The notes beneath the pieces are model-generated. The model made no database searches, had not been told where the DNA came from, and saw only the letters and a program-made list of their open reading frames with translations. The position numbers and the translations under genes were made by a program. A DNA stretch of 64,000 nucleotides from Lentibacillus halodurans. Lineage in GTDB: Bacteria; Bacillota; Bacilli; Bacillales; Amphibacillaceae. The stretch lies in NCBI RefSeq assembly GCF_900112045.1, contig NZ_FOJW01000008.1:1-64000 (forward strand), written 5' to 3'. Positions 1,247 through 63,437 of the stretch are shown one piece after another (the stretch's first letter is position 1; each line of letters starts with the position of its first letter).

Positions 1247-1822
1247 ATGGCGCGTGACCGGAAATTCACAAAAGATTCGTTATTTCAGGCAACAAAAGAT
1301 ATTCTGCTTAATCATGGCTATGAGGGATTTACATTCAGTATTTTGGCTGAACGGCTGAATGTGTCCAGAGGTGCTTTGTACAAATACTATGCGAATAAAG
1401 ACGAATTAGTTATGGATTACATGCTTTATCATATGCATCAGTTTATGGAAGATTTGAGAGGTATTCAGGAATATAATGATTTCACAGCTCAATTTAATTT
1501 TGTAATCCATTTAATGTATAAACATAGTAAAATTCATCAGATTTTAAAAGCTTCTCAGCATATACCAGCTAAAACAAACTTGAAAACCAAAACAAGTAAA
1601 GAGCGTCTCGATCATATGCATCATGATATGTATACACAATTACAGGAGTTAATTGAGCAAGGAAGAAAGGAGAAAATCTTAAAACCCGACATCCCTGATG
1701 AGCTGATTTTAGTGTTGATTTTCCAGCTTGTTGAAATCCCTAATCTTTCCGGCGTTACGCGGGAGGAATGGGTGGAAAAGGTAACAGAAATATTAAGTCA
1801 TGGAATGTTCACAGATACATAG
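1247..1822 (+). CDS. TetR/AcrR family transcriptional regulator
   Basis: The 191-residue protein has the TetR layout: an N-terminal helix-turn-helix (about residues 8-55, with FTFSILAERLNVSRGALYKY as the recognition region) and a helical ligand-binding part. The start follows a good GAGGTG ribosome site. It lies 112 bp upstream of and co-oriented with an MMPL exporter, the usual arrangement for a local repressor of an efflux or lipid-export gene. Two identical palindromes in the gap between them are the likely operators. The inducer is unknown. Confidence 0.9.
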   Translation: MARDRKFTKDSLFQATKDILLNHGYEGFTFSILAERLNVSRGALYKYYANKDELVMDYMLYHMHQFMEDLRGIQEYNDFTAQFNFVIHLMYKHSKIHQILKASQHIPAKTNLKTKTSKERLDHMHHDMYTQLQELIEQGRKEKILKPDIPDELILVLIFQLVEIPNLSGVTREEWVEKVTEILSHGMFTDT

Positions 1823-1934: not shown

Positions 1935-4028
1935 ATGAGAAGCTTTTTACAATCGATAACAGACCGTGTTTCTACAAGAAAAGGAGCGTGGGTCACGCTC
2001 TCAATTTGGTTGGCAGTTATGCTGTTATTAACTTTTTTTGCCCCCACAGCCCAAGAGTATCAGGTTTCGAGTATAGAGACTATTCCGGATGATGCACCTT
2101 CGTCAATTGCTCAGGATAAAGTGGACGCGTATTTTGATGACAGTGATGGTGTACCGGCGATGCTGGTTTTTCAAGCAGATGATGAACAGATGGAACAAGC
2201 GGAACTTGTCAGCTTTTTAGAAACAATGAAACAGGAGAATATTGATGGTCTGCATAATATGGTTCCATTGGCGGACATACCTCCACAAGCTACAGCACAG
2301 TTTTTTTCTAAGGATAAGAGCACTGTCCTCATTCCGATGACGTTTGATAGCTCTTTAGAAAATGCGGCTATAAAGAATTCGCTTGATGACATCTATTCAC
2401 TTGCCGAAGAAGAGGAAGATATGACACTGGAGATTACTGGTCCTGCTGCAATAGGAGCGGATACGATTGAACTATTTTCCCGTGCAGATATTGTTCTTAT
2501 GATGTCGACAGTAGCTATCATATTAGTGTTATTAATTGTTATCTATCGGTCGCCGTTTTTGTCACTGATTCCACTGCTTGCAGCGGGATTTGTGTTCGTG
2601 GTGGTCAATCAGGTACTTGGGCTTATGGGAATAGCTGGATTTACATTAGGACAGCAGTCTTTTTCGATCATGACGATTTTGCTGTTTGCTGCGATTATTG
2701 ACTATTCGCTCTTTGTATTCTCACGCTACAGAGAGGAATTAAAGGAATATGAAAATAAATACGAAGCGATGAAACAGGCCATGCGCGGCACGGGTATTCC
2801 ACTCTTTTATTCAGGTGGAACGGTGCTGGCGGCAATGCTAATGCTATTGTTTGCCGTGTTTGTTGAATATCAGAATTTCGCACCGGTATTTGGTACGGCG
2901 ATTGTTTTTGTATTAATAGCAGTATTAACGCTTGTCCCAGCATTATTTGCTTTGTTTGGCAGGAGATCCTTCTGGCCAAGAGTTCCGCATGTGGGCGATA
3001 AACGTGTAAAGCAAAGTTCTTTCTGGAGCAAAGTTGGCCGTTTCGTGACACAAAAACCTGTCATGTCGGTTGCCTCGATCGGTGTTTTTCTGCTGCTTTC
3101 GACAACTAATGTGTTCAATCTGGAATATGAGTTCAACACGATGAAATCCTTCCCTGAAGATATGCCATCCAGAGAAGGGTATGAACAGTTGGAAGAAACC
3201 TTTGCACCTGGTGAATTAGCACCTACAACGGTATTACTGGAAGCAGGCGAAACAGTCACTGAAGCAGATCGCCAAGCGGTGATGGATGAGCTTACTGAGC
3301 AGTCACTTGTAAGCGATGTCCGGATTCAAAATATGACAGATGATCAGGAAGTCATTTCTTACCAAATGACTTTTGAGATGAATCCATATTCAAGTGAAAC
3401 GATGGATGCATTGGAAGAAATGATGCTGGACGCTGACGGGATTTTGCAAAGCAGTAATGTGCAGGGTGAATTATATTTCGCCGGGGAAACGGCCAAATCT
3501 GTTGATGATCGCTCATTAAACAACCGTGATTTAATCGTGATCGTTATATTGGAAACCGTATTGATTTTCGGTATGCTTATATTTTTGACGAGATCTTTCA
3601 AACTGCCATTGTATATGATGGGGACCATTCTCGTTTCCTTTGTGGCAGCGCTTGGGCTAGGTTCATTCCTGAGTGATCTATTCTTTGGCATTGACACGAT
3701 CAGTAATCGGGTACCGCTTTACGCATTCGTATTTCTCGTTGCACTGGGTATCGATTATAATATCATGCTCGTCTCGCGATTCATGGAGGAAAGGGAGAAA
3801 TACCCTGTTAAAGAAGCGGTGGAAAAGGCAGTTGCCAATACAGGCGGTGTTATTTCATCTGCCGGTATCATTCTTGCTGCAACATTCAGTGTATTGATGA
3901 CACAACCAATACAATTGCTGTTCGTATTTGGCTTTATTGTGGCAGTCGGAATTTTGATTGATACATTCCTGGTCAGAGGCGTATTGCTGCCGGGATTGCT
4001 GGTATTATTTGAAAAAGATAAAAATTAG
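1935..4028 (+). CDS. MMPL/RND family membrane transporter
   Basis: The protein has 697 residues in the duplicated RND/MMPL plan: one N-terminal membrane helix, a large outer domain (about 40-170), a block of helices (about 180-340), a second outer domain (about 395-530) and a second helix block. Each half carries the conserved aspartate-tyrosine in a membrane helix (IIDYSLFVFSRY near 255 and GIDYNIMLVSRF near 606), expected for proton-coupled transport. It resembles Bacillus YdfJ. Substrates of this family include lipids and drugs; the cargo here is unknown. An AGGAGG site precedes the ATG, and the TetR gene upstream is the probable regulator. Confidence 0.9.
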   Translation: MRSFLQSITDRVSTRKGAWVTLSIWLAVMLLLTFFAPTAQEYQVSSIETIPDDAPSSIAQDKVDAYFDDSDGVPAMLVFQADDEQMEQAELVSFLETMKQENIDGLHNMVPLADIPPQATAQFFSKDKSTVLIPMTFDSSLENAAIKNSLDDIYSLAEEEEDMTLEITGPAAIGADTIELFSRADIVLMMSTVAIILVLLIVIYRSPFLSLIPLLAAGFVFVVVNQVLGLMGIAGFTLGQQSFSIMTILLFAAIIDYSLFVFSRYREELKEYENKYEAMKQAMRGTGIPLFYSGGTVLAAMLMLLFAVFVEYQNFAPVFGTAIVFVLIAVLTLVPALFALFGRRSFWPRVPHVGDKRVKQSSFWSKVGRFVTQKPVMSVASIGVFLLLSTTNVFNLEYEFNTMKSFPEDMPSREGYEQLEETFAPGELAPTTVLLEAGETVTEADRQAVMDELTEQSLVSDVRIQNMTDDQEVISYQMTFEMNPYSSETMDALEEMMLDADGILQSSNVQGELYFAGETAKSVDDRSLNNRDLIVIVILETVLIFGMLIFLTRSFKLPLYMMGTILVSFVAALGLGSFLSDLFFGIDTISNRVPLYAFVFLVALGIDYNIMLVSRFMEEREKYPVKEAVEKAVANTGGVISSAGIILAATFSVLMTQPIQLLFVFGFIVAVGILIDTFLVRGVLLPGLLVLFEKDKN

Positions 4029-12545: not shown

Positions 12546-13514
12546 ATGACAGCAGAAGGATCGATCAAGCATATTACCGTCGTCGGGACAGGCGTGATCG
12601 GTAACGGATGGATAACACGATTTTTAGCAAATGGCTGCCACGTGACGGCATCAGACCCTGACCCGACAGCTGAAGCCCGTACCCGTGAAGCAGTCCAGCG
12701 GGCATGGCTTTCAATGGAGGAAATGGGGCTGTCTCAAGCGGCATCGCAGGATAATTTATTTTTTGAACAGGATTTGAAAAAAGCTTTATCGAATGCAGAT
12801 TTTGTTCAGGAAAACGTTCCGGAGCGGGAAGAATTGAAACGAAGGGTTATTGCTGATATTGATAAATATTCACCAAACGAAGCGGTTATTGCTTCAAGCA
12901 CATCCGGTATACTGCCGAGCACGTTGCAGGCAGATTGTCACAATCATCCGGAGCGTGTGATGGTCGCTCATCCGTTCAACCCGGTGTACCTTGTACCACT
13001 TGTTGAACTTGTTGGCGGTGAAAAAACGGAATCGCAGTATATCGACAAGGCAAAGAATTTTTATGATGGCATGGGGATGAAGCCGCTTGTTGTTCGTCAG
13101 GAAATTGAAGGACATATTGCCGATCGTCTGATGGAGGCTATCTGGCGCGAATCATTGCACATTGTTAATGATGGCGTTGCAACAACTGAAGAAGTGGATG
13201 CATCTATCATATACGGTCCGGGATTGCGCTGGGCACTGATGGGACCATTCATGACATTGCACATGGGCGGCGGCAAGCAAGGCATGCGCCATCTGCTGGA
13301 GCAATTCGGCCCTGCATTGAAATTGCCATGGACGAAACTGGAAGCACCGGAGTTAACGGATGAACTGGCGTACAAGGTGGTCACTGGTACCGAAGAACAA
13401 ACCAGTGATGTGGAGATGGAAAGGCTGGAAGACCGCCGTGACCAGTTTTTAATCGAACTCCAGCAGCTATTGGAAAAATATTGGCCAGGCGCCAATCTGT
13501 TAGGCAAACTGTAA
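12546..13514 (+). CDS. L-carnitine dehydrogenase (3-hydroxyacyl-CoA dehydrogenase family)
   Basis: The 322-residue protein starts one base after the BKACE stop. It has the NAD-binding motif VVGTGVIGNGW (about residues 12-22), the catalytic stretch SSTSGILPS and AHPFNPVYLVPLVE, and a C-terminal helical domain. These are the marks of the short 3-hydroxyacyl-CoA dehydrogenase group that includes carnitine 3-dehydrogenase, which oxidises L-carnitine to 3-dehydrocarnitine with NAD. In some bacteria this enzyme is fused to a thioesterase; here the two are separate genes. A repeat element follows directly. Confidence 0.9.
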   Translation: MTAEGSIKHITVVGTGVIGNGWITRFLANGCHVTASDPDPTAEARTREAVQRAWLSMEEMGLSQAASQDNLFFEQDLKKALSNADFVQENVPEREELKRRVIADIDKYSPNEAVIASSTSGILPSTLQADCHNHPERVMVAHPFNPVYLVPLVELVGGEKTESQYIDKAKNFYDGMGMKPLVVRQEIEGHIADRLMEAIWRESLHIVNDGVATTEEVDASIIYGPGLRWALMGPFMTLHMGGGKQGMRHLLEQFGPALKLPWTKLEAPELTDELAYKVVTGTEEQTSDVEMERLEDRRDQFLIELQQLLEKYWPGANLLGKL

Positions 13515-13516
13515 AA

Positions 13517-13670
13517 TAAAGTGAAACTTTATTCAGTGGGGCGATTTTCCCCACTGAGGAAAAGGAACAAAGGCTAAGAACGCAACATCGTGTTGCAACG
13601 CCTTTGTGACCTGCGTCGTGCAGGCCCGAACAGAATCGGACAATTACGACGCACAGGACGTGATAGAGTG
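13517..13670 (+). repeat. Modular intergenic repeat, copy A (one double-hairpin unit)
   Basis: An AAAGTGAAAC lead is followed by a hairpin of CAGTGGGG/CCCCACTG arms, then the double-hairpin unit. In that unit the outer stem CAAAGGC/GCCTTTG encloses the small hairpin GCAAC-ATCGT-GTTGC, then TGA and a second hairpin CCTGC-GTCGT-GCAGG, then CCC. It continues with GAACAGAATCGGACA, shared with the tandem copies near 29.3 kb. It sits in the carnitine unit between the dehydrogenase and the thioesterase. No coding potential is seen. Confidence 0.8.
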
Positions 13671-29199: not shown

Positions 29200-29257
29200 T
29201 AGAAGCAAACCCACCTCCTGTATCAGAAAATCGGCAACAGCCATGCAACGTGGTACA

Positions 29258-29697
29258 ATAAAGTGAAACTTCATTCAGCGGGTGTACTTTCCGCTGAATG
29301 ATAGTTGAACAGAATCGGACATTTACGGGCAGTTAATCCTACGGTTAAATTTTTGAATATCAAATCAGTTTATAAATGAGGATTTACTGCCCGTTATATG
29401 CGGGATAAAGTGAAACTTCATTCAGCGGGTGTACTTTCCGCTGAATGATAGTTGAACAGAATCGGACATTTACGGGCAGTTAATCCTACGGTTAAATTTT
29501 TGAATATCAAATCAGTTTATAAATGAGGATTTACTGCCCGTTATATGCGGGATAAAGTGAAACTTCATTCAGTCGGGCGTTTCCCCCCACTGAATGTTAG
29601 TTGAATCGAATCGGACATTTACGGACAGTTGCTCTCCGCATAAATTTTTCGCATGTATTAAATCAGGCAGCGGAAGCGTACTGCCTGTTAAGGCGGG
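29258..29697 (+). repeat. Triple tandem repeat, 147-bp unit (intergenic repeat family, copy B)
   Basis: Three head-to-tail units start at 29258, 29405 and 29552. The first two look identical base for base; the third (146 bp) is diverged. Each unit has AAAGTGAAACTTCATTCAG, a short hairpin (CATTCAGCGG/CCGCTGAATG), a constant linker with TTGAACAGAATCGGACAT, and a long terminal hairpin with ACGGGCAGT/ACTGCCCGT arms, ending in CGGG. No frame is conserved. Together with its flanks it fills the gap between the germination operon and the amidase gene. Confidence 0.9.
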
Positions 29698-29729
29698 ATA
29701 AAGAATAACAGTTGACCAGGAGGAATAAG

Positions 29730-35791: not shown

Positions 35792-35844
35792 CGCCATCCT
35801 GATTGATTAGTAGAATAAATGAGTATTAAAAGATGACTATAATG

Positions 35845-36010
35845 CCATTCATATATCCTCGATAATATGGTTCGAAAGTTTCTACCGGAGCACCGCAAAT
35901 GCTCTGACTATGAAGGCGGAATTTCAATAGGTGATGTATGATTCAACCTGGATTTCTGCCTTCGTGTAGCTATAGGCTGCATATTGGCAGGGGTTCAGGT
36001 TATTTTAATA
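35845..36010 (+). promoter_or_regulatory. Guanine-class purine riboswitch with terminator, upstream of guaA
   Basis: The aptamer (about 35845-35918) shows the purine riboswitch core: ATAATATGG, GTTTCTACCGG, the P3 stem GAGCA/TGCTC, and CTGACTATGAAG. The discriminating base in GACTA is C, as in guanine-binding members (adenine binders have GATTA). A 16-bp GU-rich stem (35945-35960 with 35986-36001) followed by ATTTTAAT forms the terminator, and GAAGGCGGAAT of the P1 side can pair with ATTTCTGCCTTC to prevent it. Guanine should therefore switch guaA off. Confidence 0.88.
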
Positions 36011-37663: not shown

Positions 37664-37754
37664 CGAACGTTGAAAAGAGTTAATAACAAAAATATTCGTA
37701 TTTTAATTGACGGTATTGAATTTTTATAGTATCTTAATAGTACAATTTAATCGT

Positions 37755-37922
37755 TGCGTATAATTTCGGGAATATGGCCCAAGAGTTTCTACCGGACCAC
37801 CGTAAATGGTCTGACTACGCAGGATGAACTATGATGATGAGCATTATGATGTCTCTTCTGATTGCTTTATCTTGCAACGTTTTACAGCACTCTTGCCCCG
37901 GCAGGAGTGTTTTCATTTTTTT
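37755..37922 (+). promoter_or_regulatory. Guanine-class purine riboswitch with terminator, upstream of pbuG
   Basis: The aptamer spans 37755-37821: P1 TGCGTA/TACGCA, core TAATTTCGGGAATATGG, AGAGTTTCTACCGG, P3 GACCA/TGGTC, and CTGACTAC, with C at the position that selects guanine. A 10-bp terminator stem (37888-37897 with 37900-37909) runs into TTTTCATTTTTTT. Regulation of a purine permease by guanine through early termination follows from the class. Confidence 0.9.
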
Positions 37923-61379: not shown

Positions 61380-61715
61380 TTGATCCCGCATGTAACGGGC
61401 AGTAAGACTCCCCAATTATAACGTGGCGTCTATTAATAGCTGATAAGGGGGGGGGGCAACTGCCAGGCAGGTTAATTTCGTCACGTCCTGTGACAACGCC
61501 TGCACTAGCACGTCCTGTGCGTCGTAATGCCTATTCTGTTCGGGCCTGCACGATGCAAGTCACAAAGGCGTTGCAACACGATGTTGCGTACTTAGCCATT
61601 GTTCCTTATGATCAGTGGGGGATAAAGAAACGCAGACTTAAACCGCTACGTCCCGTGGCAACGTCTGCATGACCTACATCCTGTAGGCCCAACCCCCACT
61701 GATTGAAGTATCACT
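61380..61715 (-). repeat. Composite intergenic repeat, copy E (three double-hairpin units)
   Basis: The outer frame, read on the minus strand, starts AAGTGATACTTCAATCAGTGGG at the regulator stop codon (only parts are quoted: AAGTGATACTTC, CAGTGGGGG) and ends TTACTGCCCGTTACATGCGGG (TTACTGCCCGTTAC). Inside are three double-hairpin units: 61467-61520 (plus), about 61545-61601 (minus) and 61632-61687 (plus). A G10 run lies at 61447-61456. It fills the gap between the sigma-54 activator gene and the promoter of the dehydrogenase operon; no gene is seen. Confidence 0.8.
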
Positions 61716-63423
61716 TGATGCCCAACTTATTCAGTCGGTTGTACAGTGTTGCCCTTGTGATTTGCAGGTTTTTGGCACAGGATAATTTGTTGCCATCCAC
61801 TTTTTTTAATTCCTTTAGAATAATTTCTCGTTCCACCTCTTGTAATCGAGCATTCAGGGAGCGACGATCGTTATATAGGGTGAAGTTGGGATCTGTTTGT
61901 TGTGTTTGTTCTGCATCAAACGGAAGATCTTCCAGTTTGATCTCCCCATTCTCTGAAAAGACGACGAGTCGTTCGATAACATTTTTCAATTCACGTATGT
62001 TGCCTGGCCATTGGTGGTTGAGAAGTGCTTGCATGACAACTTGAGATATACCATGCAGTGGCCGATTGTACTTGATGGAAATCTCATGCAGAAAATAATG
62101 AGTCAGTTCAATGATATCTTCTGGTCTTTCTCGTAACGGTGGAATTTTTACACTGACTACATTCAGCCGATAGTAGAGGTCTTCACGGAATTTGCCCTCT
62201 TGGATCAGTTCTTTCAGATCACGGTTTGTGGCAGCAACTACCCGAAAGTCGACTTCGATTTCTTTCGTTCCGCCAACTGGATAAAATTTCTTTTCCTGCA
62301 GTAATCTTAAAATCTTCACTTGCATATCTAAAGGCATTTCACCAATCTCGTCTAGAAACAAGGTGCCACTTTTTGCAAGTTCTACTTTACCCTTTTTCCC
62401 TTTTTGGTCAGCACCGGAAAATGCACCCTTTTCATAACCGAAGATTTCACTCTCAAATAAGGCATAAGGAATAGCGCTGCAGTTGATTGCGACAAATGGT
62501 GCGTTTTTCCCTTCTCGAATATGGTGTACGGCTTTTGCAAATAATTCCTTGCCAACACCACTATCGCCTTGTATTAAGATGTTTGTATCAGTGGATGCTG
62601 CCTTGGTTATTTTTTTCTTTGTTTTTTCCAGTACACTACTATTGCCTCGGATCGAGCCGAATGGGTTCTCTGTCTCCATGAATCTTTTCACTTCTTTTTC
62701 CAAATGAAACAGTCGCTCGGATGTGTTATACAATTCTTTATTCAGTTTTATCTGACTTGTGATATCTGTTTCGGACACAACTGCTCCAATTATTTGGTTA
62801 TCGTGTTGAACTGGGTTCGAATTAATCAAAACAACCTGGTTTTCACGTGCAGTATGTTGATTATGGTAGACAGAAGTTTCGTTTTGCAGCGTTTTTAAGA
62901 TTTCCAGACGTTCAGGATTGAAAAAATCAGTTATTGGCTTACCGATAATATCGTCGCTTTTAACGGAAAAGAGTTTTTCTGCTCCTTTTGACCAAACTAA
63001 TACGCGTTTTGTGGCATCGATCACTGTGCAGGATTCATCGATGGTGGTTAATATAGCCGAAGTGTAAGCATGTAAATGGTTGTATTGTGTTACCAACTTT
63101 TTGCAAAACGATTCAGAATCAATAAATCCAGCCATTTTTCGGTTTTGTTTAATGATAACGGTTTCATATTTTTGTAATAAATAAAAGCTATCCTGAATGG
63201 TGTCTCGATTGGAAAGTTCCCCGCAACGGATGCAGCGGACTTTATTTGTCTCAGTTTCTGTCTTTGCCCGATAAAAGGATTCCCCTTTAGTGACAAAAAC
63301 ATTTAAGGAGGAGTCCGATCCCAGAAGTGTTCGCAGTTGATTTTCTGTATTATTTTCTTCTCGTACAAGCTTAAACTGATCGTTCATTATGTCACTTACC
63401 GTAGTTGGTTTGATAGACATCAT
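61711..63423 (-). CDS. Sigma-54-dependent activator (PAS, AAA+, Fis-type HTH)
   Basis: A 570-residue enhancer-binding protein. The N-terminal ~105 residues look like a degenerate CBS-type region with a CIRC pair (about 64-67); a PAS domain follows (about 115-225). The AAA+ domain has Walker A GDSGVGKE (about 287-294), the sigma-54 contact loop as GAFSGA (about 333-338, Ser replacing the usual Thr), Walker B GTLFLDEIGEM, and RELKNVIERL. A Fis-type helix-turn-helix ends the protein. Three sigma-54 promoters nearby are its obvious targets. The signal is probably proline or hydroxyproline (inference). Confidence 0.93.
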   Translation of the reverse strand: MMSIKPTTVSDIMNDQFKLVREENNTENQLRTLLGSDSSLNVFVTKGESFYRAKTETETNKVRCIRCGELSNRDTIQDSFYLLQKYETVIIKQNRKMAGFIDSESFCKKLVTQYNHLHAYTSAILTTIDESCTVIDATKRVLVWSKGAEKLFSVKSDDIIGKPITDFFNPERLEILKTLQNETSVYHNQHTARENQVVLINSNPVQHDNQIIGAVVSETDITSQIKLNKELYNTSERLFHLEKEVKRFMETENPFGSIRGNSSVLEKTKKKITKAASTDTNILIQGDSGVGKELFAKAVHHIREGKNAPFVAINCSAIPYALFESEIFGYEKGAFSGADQKGKKGKVELAKSGTLFLDEIGEMPLDMQVKILRLLQEKKFYPVGGTKEIEVDFRVVAATNRDLKELIQEGKFREDLYYRLNVVSVKIPPLRERPEDIIELTHYFLHEISIKYNRPLHGISQVVMQALLNHQWPGNIRELKNVIERLVVFSENGEIKLEDLPFDAEQTQQTDPNFTLYNDRRSLNARLQEVEREIILKELKKVDGNKLSCAKNLQITRATLYNRLNKLGIK

Positions 63424-63437
63424 ATTCACCCTTTTTA

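Follow-up and report, generated by a model that had tools for sequence, protein, structure and literature searches.

The locus and its double-hairpin units

The window analysed here, a stretch of 64,000 nucleotides from contig NZ_FOJW01000008.1 of Lentibacillus halodurans, contains four double-hairpin units at two intergenic sites (Table 1). One unit lies at 13.5 kb and is flanked by genes of the 3-hydroxyacyl-CoA-dehydrogenase and thioesterase types; the other three form an array at 61.5 kb, with a sigma-54 activator gene on one side and a gene of the BFD-like [2Fe-2S] type on the other, these gene types being taken from Pfam. A scan of the window with the Rfam 15 covariance models assigns all four units to RF01690 (Bacillaceae-1 RNA) with scores of 48.9-75.2 bits, the gathering score being 35 bits, and the E-values obtained in this 64-kb search argue against chance matches. 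The first-pass annotation had described the shared plan of the four units correctly, including the stems and linkers that it quoted, but had stated that no named family has such a plan; this was mistaken, since RF01690 is a described family that fits and that is listed in Table 1 of an earlier survey (Weinberg et al., 2010; PMC2864571).

Table 1. Bacillaceae-1 units and accompanying repeat elements in the 64-kb window
Feature	Position	Strand	Evidence or remark
Carrier repeat, 5' part: AAAGTGAAACTT..CAG lead and CAGTGGGG/CCCCACTG hairpin	13515-13557	+	Lead 13518-13536, 1 mismatch
Bacillaceae-1 unit, loops ATCGT (inner hairpin, followed by AAC) and GTCGT (second hairpin)	13558-13624	+	RF01690, 75.2 bits, E 4.9e-12
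Outer stem of unit 13558-13624, with leader 5' of it and TAAGAAC linker after it	13568-13574/13600-13606		
Carrier repeat, 3' part: CCCGAACAGAATCGGAC..	13625-13646	+	Exact carrier word at 13625-13641
Isolated fragment resembling the second hairpin of the unit: CACGTCCTGTGCG	13650-13662	-	Read from sequence; same letters at 61509-61521
Three head-to-tail carrier repeats, ~147-bp period, without Bacillaceae-1 unit	29257-29701	+	No RF01690 match there
Bacillaceae-1 unit, loops GTCCT and GTCCT	61456-61521	+	RF01690, 48.9 bits, E 6.5e-06
3' carrier word after unit 61545-61611	61528-61544	-	3 mismatches to CCCGAACAGAATCGGAC
Bacillaceae-1 unit, loops ATCGT and ATCGT	61545-61611	-	RF01690, 68.4 bits, E 1.8e-10
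Inverted repeat ATCAGTGGGGG/CCCCCACTGAT around unit 61621-61687	61611-61621/61693-61703		
Bacillaceae-1 unit, loops GTCCC and ATCCT	61621-61687	+	RF01690, 68.1 bits, E 2.2e-10
Carrier lead, overlapping the stop codon of regulator gene 61711-63429 (sigma-54 type)	61699-61717	-	3 mismatches

According to its consensus line, as displayed at locus L125, RF01690 consists of a 7-bp outer stem, a 7-nt linker of the type CUAAGauC, a 5-bp hairpin with a 5-nt loop, AAC, the closing stem, UGA and a second 5-bp hairpin with a 5-nt loop. The plan of structure and loops is the same in the four window units, although unit 13558-13624 has ATCGT and GTCGT where the commoner loop of the family is RTCCT. Unit 61545-61611 is a near copy of this unit, but its outer stem (CAATGGC/GCCTTTG) contains a T.T mismatch. 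Folded individually and compared with shuffled sequences, units 13558-13624 and 61621-61687 adopt the planned structure (z -2.82 and -3.82), and the single folds of units 61545-61611 (z -0.84; 41/200 shuffles at least as good) and 61456-61521 (z -1.73; 11/200) are unremarkable, the minimum-energy fold of the latter being without the second hairpin. A run of ten G residues (61447-61456), possibly a slippage tract, leads into the start of unit 61456-61521. Elsewhere in the window two purine riboswitch matches (35829-35930 and 37736-37837) are separated by about 1.8 kb.

Covariation and conservation

From the search tables 231 units were collected by their coordinates, 195 distinct ones were parsed, and 50 representatives with less than 75% identity, drawn from 29 genomes, were used to assess covariation. 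Standard pairs occupy 95.6% of the stem cells in these representatives, compared with a mean of 65.9% and a largest value of 69.6% in 500 shuffles, and displacing the partner by 1-2 nt lowers pairing to 24-43%. As the parser favours paired registers and a structure model was used to find the units, the percentage itself is somewhat too high, but the gap to the controls far exceeds that inflation; a pairing filter applied before thinning was failed by 6 of the 195 units, and without it pairing over all 195 is 95.7%. The covariation score of 0.381 exceeds all shuffled values (mean 0.060, maximum 0.087), and several stem positions show all four Watson-Crick types. The pattern of covarying stems with fixed loops and linkers, proposed in the first-pass annotation from four sequences, is thus upheld on the larger set. 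Its further reading, that selection acts on structure and not on sequence, holds in its first half, as the stems covary, and fails in its second, as the single-stranded parts are strongly conserved too: TAA is present in 184/195 units, AAC in 173/195, and the loops are chiefly RTCCT or RTCGT, the latter type occupying the first loop in 23/195 units and the second in 39/195.

Two further ideas on the structure were dropped. A pairing between an AGGA leader and the TCCT loops is without support, since no co-change was seen: AGGA occurs in 53 of the 123 units with C at the fourth position of both loops and in 3 of the 6 with G. The balance of G.U and A.C mismatches was considered as a discriminator between RNA and DNA. 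In 189 redundant units, 35 G.U and 33 A.C were counted in 2,646 cells; the tRNA acceptor stems used for comparison gave 33 and 6, respectively, in 658 cells (Fisher p 0.0007). After thinning to 47-51 representatives in five draws the counts were 19-21 and 8-13 (p 0.03-0.23 against the tRNAs), with a G.U rate of 2.7-3.0% compared with 5.0% in the acceptor stems (p 0.03-0.09); the initial difference was mostly redundancy and faded on thinning.

Copy number and taxonomic distribution

The covariance-model search proposed in the first-pass annotation returned 36 RF01690 matches at E <=0.001 in the L. halodurans genome (3.67 Mb, 31 contigs), 33 of them above the cut-off. With L. halodurans included in each sample, matches are present in 29/40 genomes, with 0-86 each among at most 95 candidates scored per genome, in 46/200 genomes of the class under strict filters with at most 24 candidates scored each, and in 4/299 genomes of a phylum sample, one of the four lying outside the class. 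Genome G013 yields 122 matches with more candidates scored. Occurrence in Bacillaceae and their kin, as known for the family, holds for the window units as well; for the gene at 12546-13514 the best matches are five Lentibacillus records (84-88% identity), one Oceanobacillus record also reaching 84%. Used as sole query in a blastn search that is insensitive for a family of this kind, window positions 13530-13665 matched 1/72,556 plasmid records (B. subtilis) and 0/50,697 phage records, and carriage on plasmids or phages was rejected at that sensitivity. A 190-bp repeat of B. subtilis was reportedly described in the 1997 genome paper; a literature search found no such repeat. A genome note on Brevibacillus reuszeri mentions 10 Bacillaceae-1 motifs (PMC5764928), and the 17 annotations that BSGatlas describes as new to B. 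subtilis resources include 8 Bacillaceae-1 structures (PMC8208703).

The loci of the 30 best of the 36 L. halodurans matches were read individually. None of these units lies within an ORF of more than 400 nt as predicted by a simple caller, and the neighbouring genes are both in the same orientation as the unit in 13 cases, both opposite in 9, mixed in 6 and incomplete in 2, which amounts to no preference (13 vs 9, p 0.52). Identity among the L. halodurans units averages 0.66 and identity to units of other genomes 0.67, so that the L. halodurans units look old. Genomes G002 and G032 show within-genome means of 0.89 and 0.91 and a mean of 0.70 to other genomes, a lineage-specific likeness that is inflated by the choice of loci from the best matches. 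The units of G032 are strongly clustered on contig C1, where 41/57 by hand count lie within the first 1.15 Mb of 3.87 Mb. At locus L128 (G091), upstream of position 1501, tandem copies of a unit of ~56 bp represent a satellite-like form of the motif.

Insertion at both window sites and a mosaic of repeats

Both window sites are insertions, since the same gene junctions in relatives are without a unit. At the 13.5-kb junction a short spacer without a unit was found by reading and cmscan in 17/17 relatives (17 of 78 loci, namely L219-L236 minus L231 and L234, plus L296). At the 61.5-kb junction the three closest homologues of the BFD-like gene in the genus (60-65% identity) were compared, and in 3/3 the end of a regulator gene of the same kind is followed by a short spacer without RF01690 match. 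The only match in the cmscan of these 20 loci is in L221 (Lentibacillus sediminis), where a unit of 48.4 bits at 3146-3213 on the minus strand lies off the junction, beyond the thioesterase gene. No target-site duplication was established from the unit-less junctions, in which the exact borders cannot be fixed.

The L. halodurans units often lie next to a larger and more abundant element, a palindromic repeat referred to here as the carrier, whose lead sequence has 109 matches in the genome at <=2 mismatches while a reversed control pattern has none. The lead AAAGTGAAACTTCAWTCAGYG (<=4 mismatches) lies within 250 nt of 18/30 L. halodurans units. In occupied carriers the unit follows the first hairpin and precedes the GAACAGAATCGGAC word, and unoccupied carriers have a short ATGATAGTT-like link at that place instead; the same genome thus holds carriers with and without the unit. 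In other genomes units are found between different flanking repeats. The arrangement is a mosaic of palindromic modules and in this respect resembles BIMEs.

Bacillaceae-1 units in rRNA and tRNA operons

Bacillaceae-1 motifs can occur near rRNA operons. A cmscan of 20 loci and then of 60 regions spanning the listed matches of genomes G228, G218, G187 and G133 (90 units), plus one region of G103, revealed units within rRNA and tRNA operons; rRNA ends were extrapolated from blastn alignments and tRNAs located by ARAGORN. In a scripted count over 231 units, 106 are in sense to the nearest stable RNA within 300 nt, 1 is antisense and 124 have no such neighbour; 89 of the 106 come from G218, G187, G228 and G133, genomes chosen after the first operon loci had appeared, and operon units are not independent, the operons of one genome being for the most part duplicates. 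The antisense unit lies at a 16S 5' end in L106 (G199), and L107 (G053), from the same genus, has the sense form.

Forty-six units end between -3 and +2 nt from the 5' end of a tRNA (Gly, Val, Thr, Asn, Met or Lys), 5S or 16S, in ten genomes from five families (G000, G014, G053, G103, G133, G187, G198, G217, G218 and G228). They are 46 of the 90 units that are followed by such a 5' end at a distance of up to 150 nt, so that in these selected genomes the second hairpin abuts the mature 5' end in about half of the cases. The spacing before 16S varies between families: a further 18 units, from G218 and G187, are not flush but stand 61-81 nt upstream of 16S (66-68 nt in 16 cases). In G228, 4/25 units abut a 5' end. 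None of the 21 units fetched from G002 and none of the 28 from G032 is near a stable RNA, and in L. halodurans 1/30 is, a unit of 38.6 bits that is flush with a 5S gene. RNase P normally meets a single-stranded leader, which makes a flush hairpin unexpected. In the accessible literature, which included few subscription journals and no supplementary files, neither the strand ratio nor the placement flush with 5' ends was found described. The family RF01690 itself is known, with its function unexplained; new here are the strand ratio and the flush 5' ends of the operon copies.

A unit can also lie inside a stable RNA gene. In L125 (G052) a 5S-like gene at 1446-1672 is interrupted twice, the second time by a Bacillaceae-1 unit (1501-1568, minus strand) that follows core residue 48 of 5S and replaces core residues ~49-61; cmscan calls no 5S there. 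The 5S rRNA expansion of the Thermoanaerobacterium group is alike in consisting of two unequal hairpins (Stepanov and Fox, 2021; PMC7812874), and the interruption of a 5S-like gene in L125 adds to this likeness. By description, which is the level at which the two were compared, the Thermoanaerobacterium-group insert measures 41-46 nt compared with ~65 nt for Bacillaceae-1, and the same source mentions similar two-hairpin motifs in intergenic regions of other genomes, including leaders and spacers of rRNA operons (PMC7812874).

The first-pass annotation had left it between RNA and extruded DNA. For the copies near rRNA and tRNA genes the 106:1 sense bias points to RNA as the form in which the structure acts. 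Two competing readings of the bias are that the unit acts in stable-RNA maturation and that operons under heavy transcription are cleared of antisense insertions.

Possible explanations for the spread and placement of the units

The explanation that we regard as likely, taken as a whole, is that Bacillaceae-1 is an inserted double-hairpin module, dispersed in some genomes and resident in operons in others, that spread as DNA and does not represent one trans-acting sRNA gene. The module of ~65 nt has entered many sites. In L. halodurans it is scattered over intergenic regions, often adjoining the larger and more abundant palindromic carrier, and in selected genomes of other Bacilli families it sits in rRNA and tRNA operons, almost always in sense. 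Its spread would be non-autonomous and would depend on an external mobiliser. The dispersed copies would have no single regulatory target and would act at most as local mRNA hairpins, while the operon copies would be transcribed in the Rfam orientation and would persist as a leader hairpin that either is removed as the 5' end of the stable RNA matures or assists this maturation, a role that may be passive or mildly useful. A more specific version, which we hold to be somewhat unlikely, makes the unit a mobile leader cassette that in several lineages of Bacilli has come to serve as the immediate sense 5' leader of tRNAs, 5S and 16S and can interrupt 5S, with the dispersed copies lying outside its niche; the second hairpin would then stack on the mature RNA and set or protect the 5' maturation point.

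Several alternatives assign the unit a function as RNA. Both the 106:1 sense bias and the 46 flush positions at tRNA, 5S and 16S 5' ends would suit a dedicated processing signal, that is, a conserved RNase site separating stable RNAs, with the dispersed copies as escaped duplicates. However, different enzymes make the 5' ends of tRNA, 5S and 16S, so that one shared signal is not expected, the spacing before 16S differs between families, and most genomes do without the unit, as 154/200 of the class have no match under strict filters with at most 24 candidates scored each; we therefore consider such a signal unlikely. The same strand bias bears on the proposal that the reverse complement of Bacillaceae-1, with loops of the type AGGAY, is a CsrA-binding small RNA, made in a study that found matches to the CsrA motif on that strand and whose text describes the discoverers of the motif as not confident of its strand (PMC4333381). 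RNAs of the CsrB kind present GGA in the hairpin loops of the transcribed strand, whereas 106/107 Bacillaceae-1 units near rRNA or tRNA genes have the opposite strand sense to that required, with RTCCT-type loops on the strand of those genes. RTCGT loops, the type of both loops of unit 13558-13624, complement to ACGAY, without GGA. CsrA (PF02599) is encoded in 27/27 searched genomes that carry RF01690 but also in 9/10 searched genomes without matches, and its presence (36/37 genomes) hence does not discriminate. The strand evidence concerns the copies adjacent to stable RNAs, the dispersed ones showing no strand preference; on balance a CsrA sponge appears very unlikely. In G025, contig C5, a unit at 415369-415435 lies ~0.5 kb upstream of csrA (415945-416100) on the same strand, possibly by chance. 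An ordinary trans-acting sRNA would agree with the Rfam type label "Gene; sRNA" and with the table of Weinberg et al., in which Bacillaceae-1 is marked "Y" as RNA and "n" as cis-regulatory (Weinberg et al., 2010; PMC2864571), but it is extremely unlikely in view of the dozens of non-allelic copies, the insertions missing from relatives and the indifference to gene orientation. A consensus scan of one locus, 13.4-13.8 kb, gave one promoter-like and one terminator-like site, which does not exceed what shuffles yield (means 0.6 and 0.4).

Other alternatives concern the way in which the module moves as DNA. The units are small, palindromic, intergenic, present in high copy number, mosaic and found in both orientations, features shared with REP/BIME repeats, and Y1_Tnp matches occur in 33/40 genomes, L. 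halodurans included. This would suit a REP/RAYT-like element whose hairpins, as single-stranded DNA, are moved by a tyrosine transposase of the Y1 (HUH) kind. Counting as RAYT-like those Y1 genes that are intact, long (>=180 aa) and low-scoring (<70 bits), G013, G030 and G036 each have at least 45 units without any such gene, and no unit occurs in G033, which has two; in the position lists of G004, G007 and G032 more than 25 kb separates long Y1 genes from the nearest unit, and L. halodurans holds a single Y1_Tnp fragment, interrupted by stops. By inspection, then, Y1 transposases show no linkage to the units and no co-distribution with their copy number; they were rejected as mobiliser, no mobiliser was found, and a REP/RAYT-like element is distinctly unlikely. 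Bacillaceae-1 also differs from REP/RAYT palindromes, which have a GTAG or CGTC tag at their foot (tags named in the title of PMC3733652), in its two-hairpin unit, enclosing stem and conserved loops. Among dispersed structured intergenic repeats of Bacillaceae, bcr1 is comparable and has been likened to MITEs (PMC3446304; PMC3733652), but it is ~150 bp long and different in sequence, and neither terminal inverted repeats nor a target duplication were established for the Bacillaceae-1 unit itself.

The operon data suggest the strand of the transcribed copies, which had been in doubt (PMC4333381), and they weaken the idea of a CsrA sponge. Dozens of "sRNA genes" annotated in one genome can be repeats, a caution for genome annotation, and whether a hairpin flush with the 5' end of a tRNA or 5S RNA alters its maturation has become a testable question.
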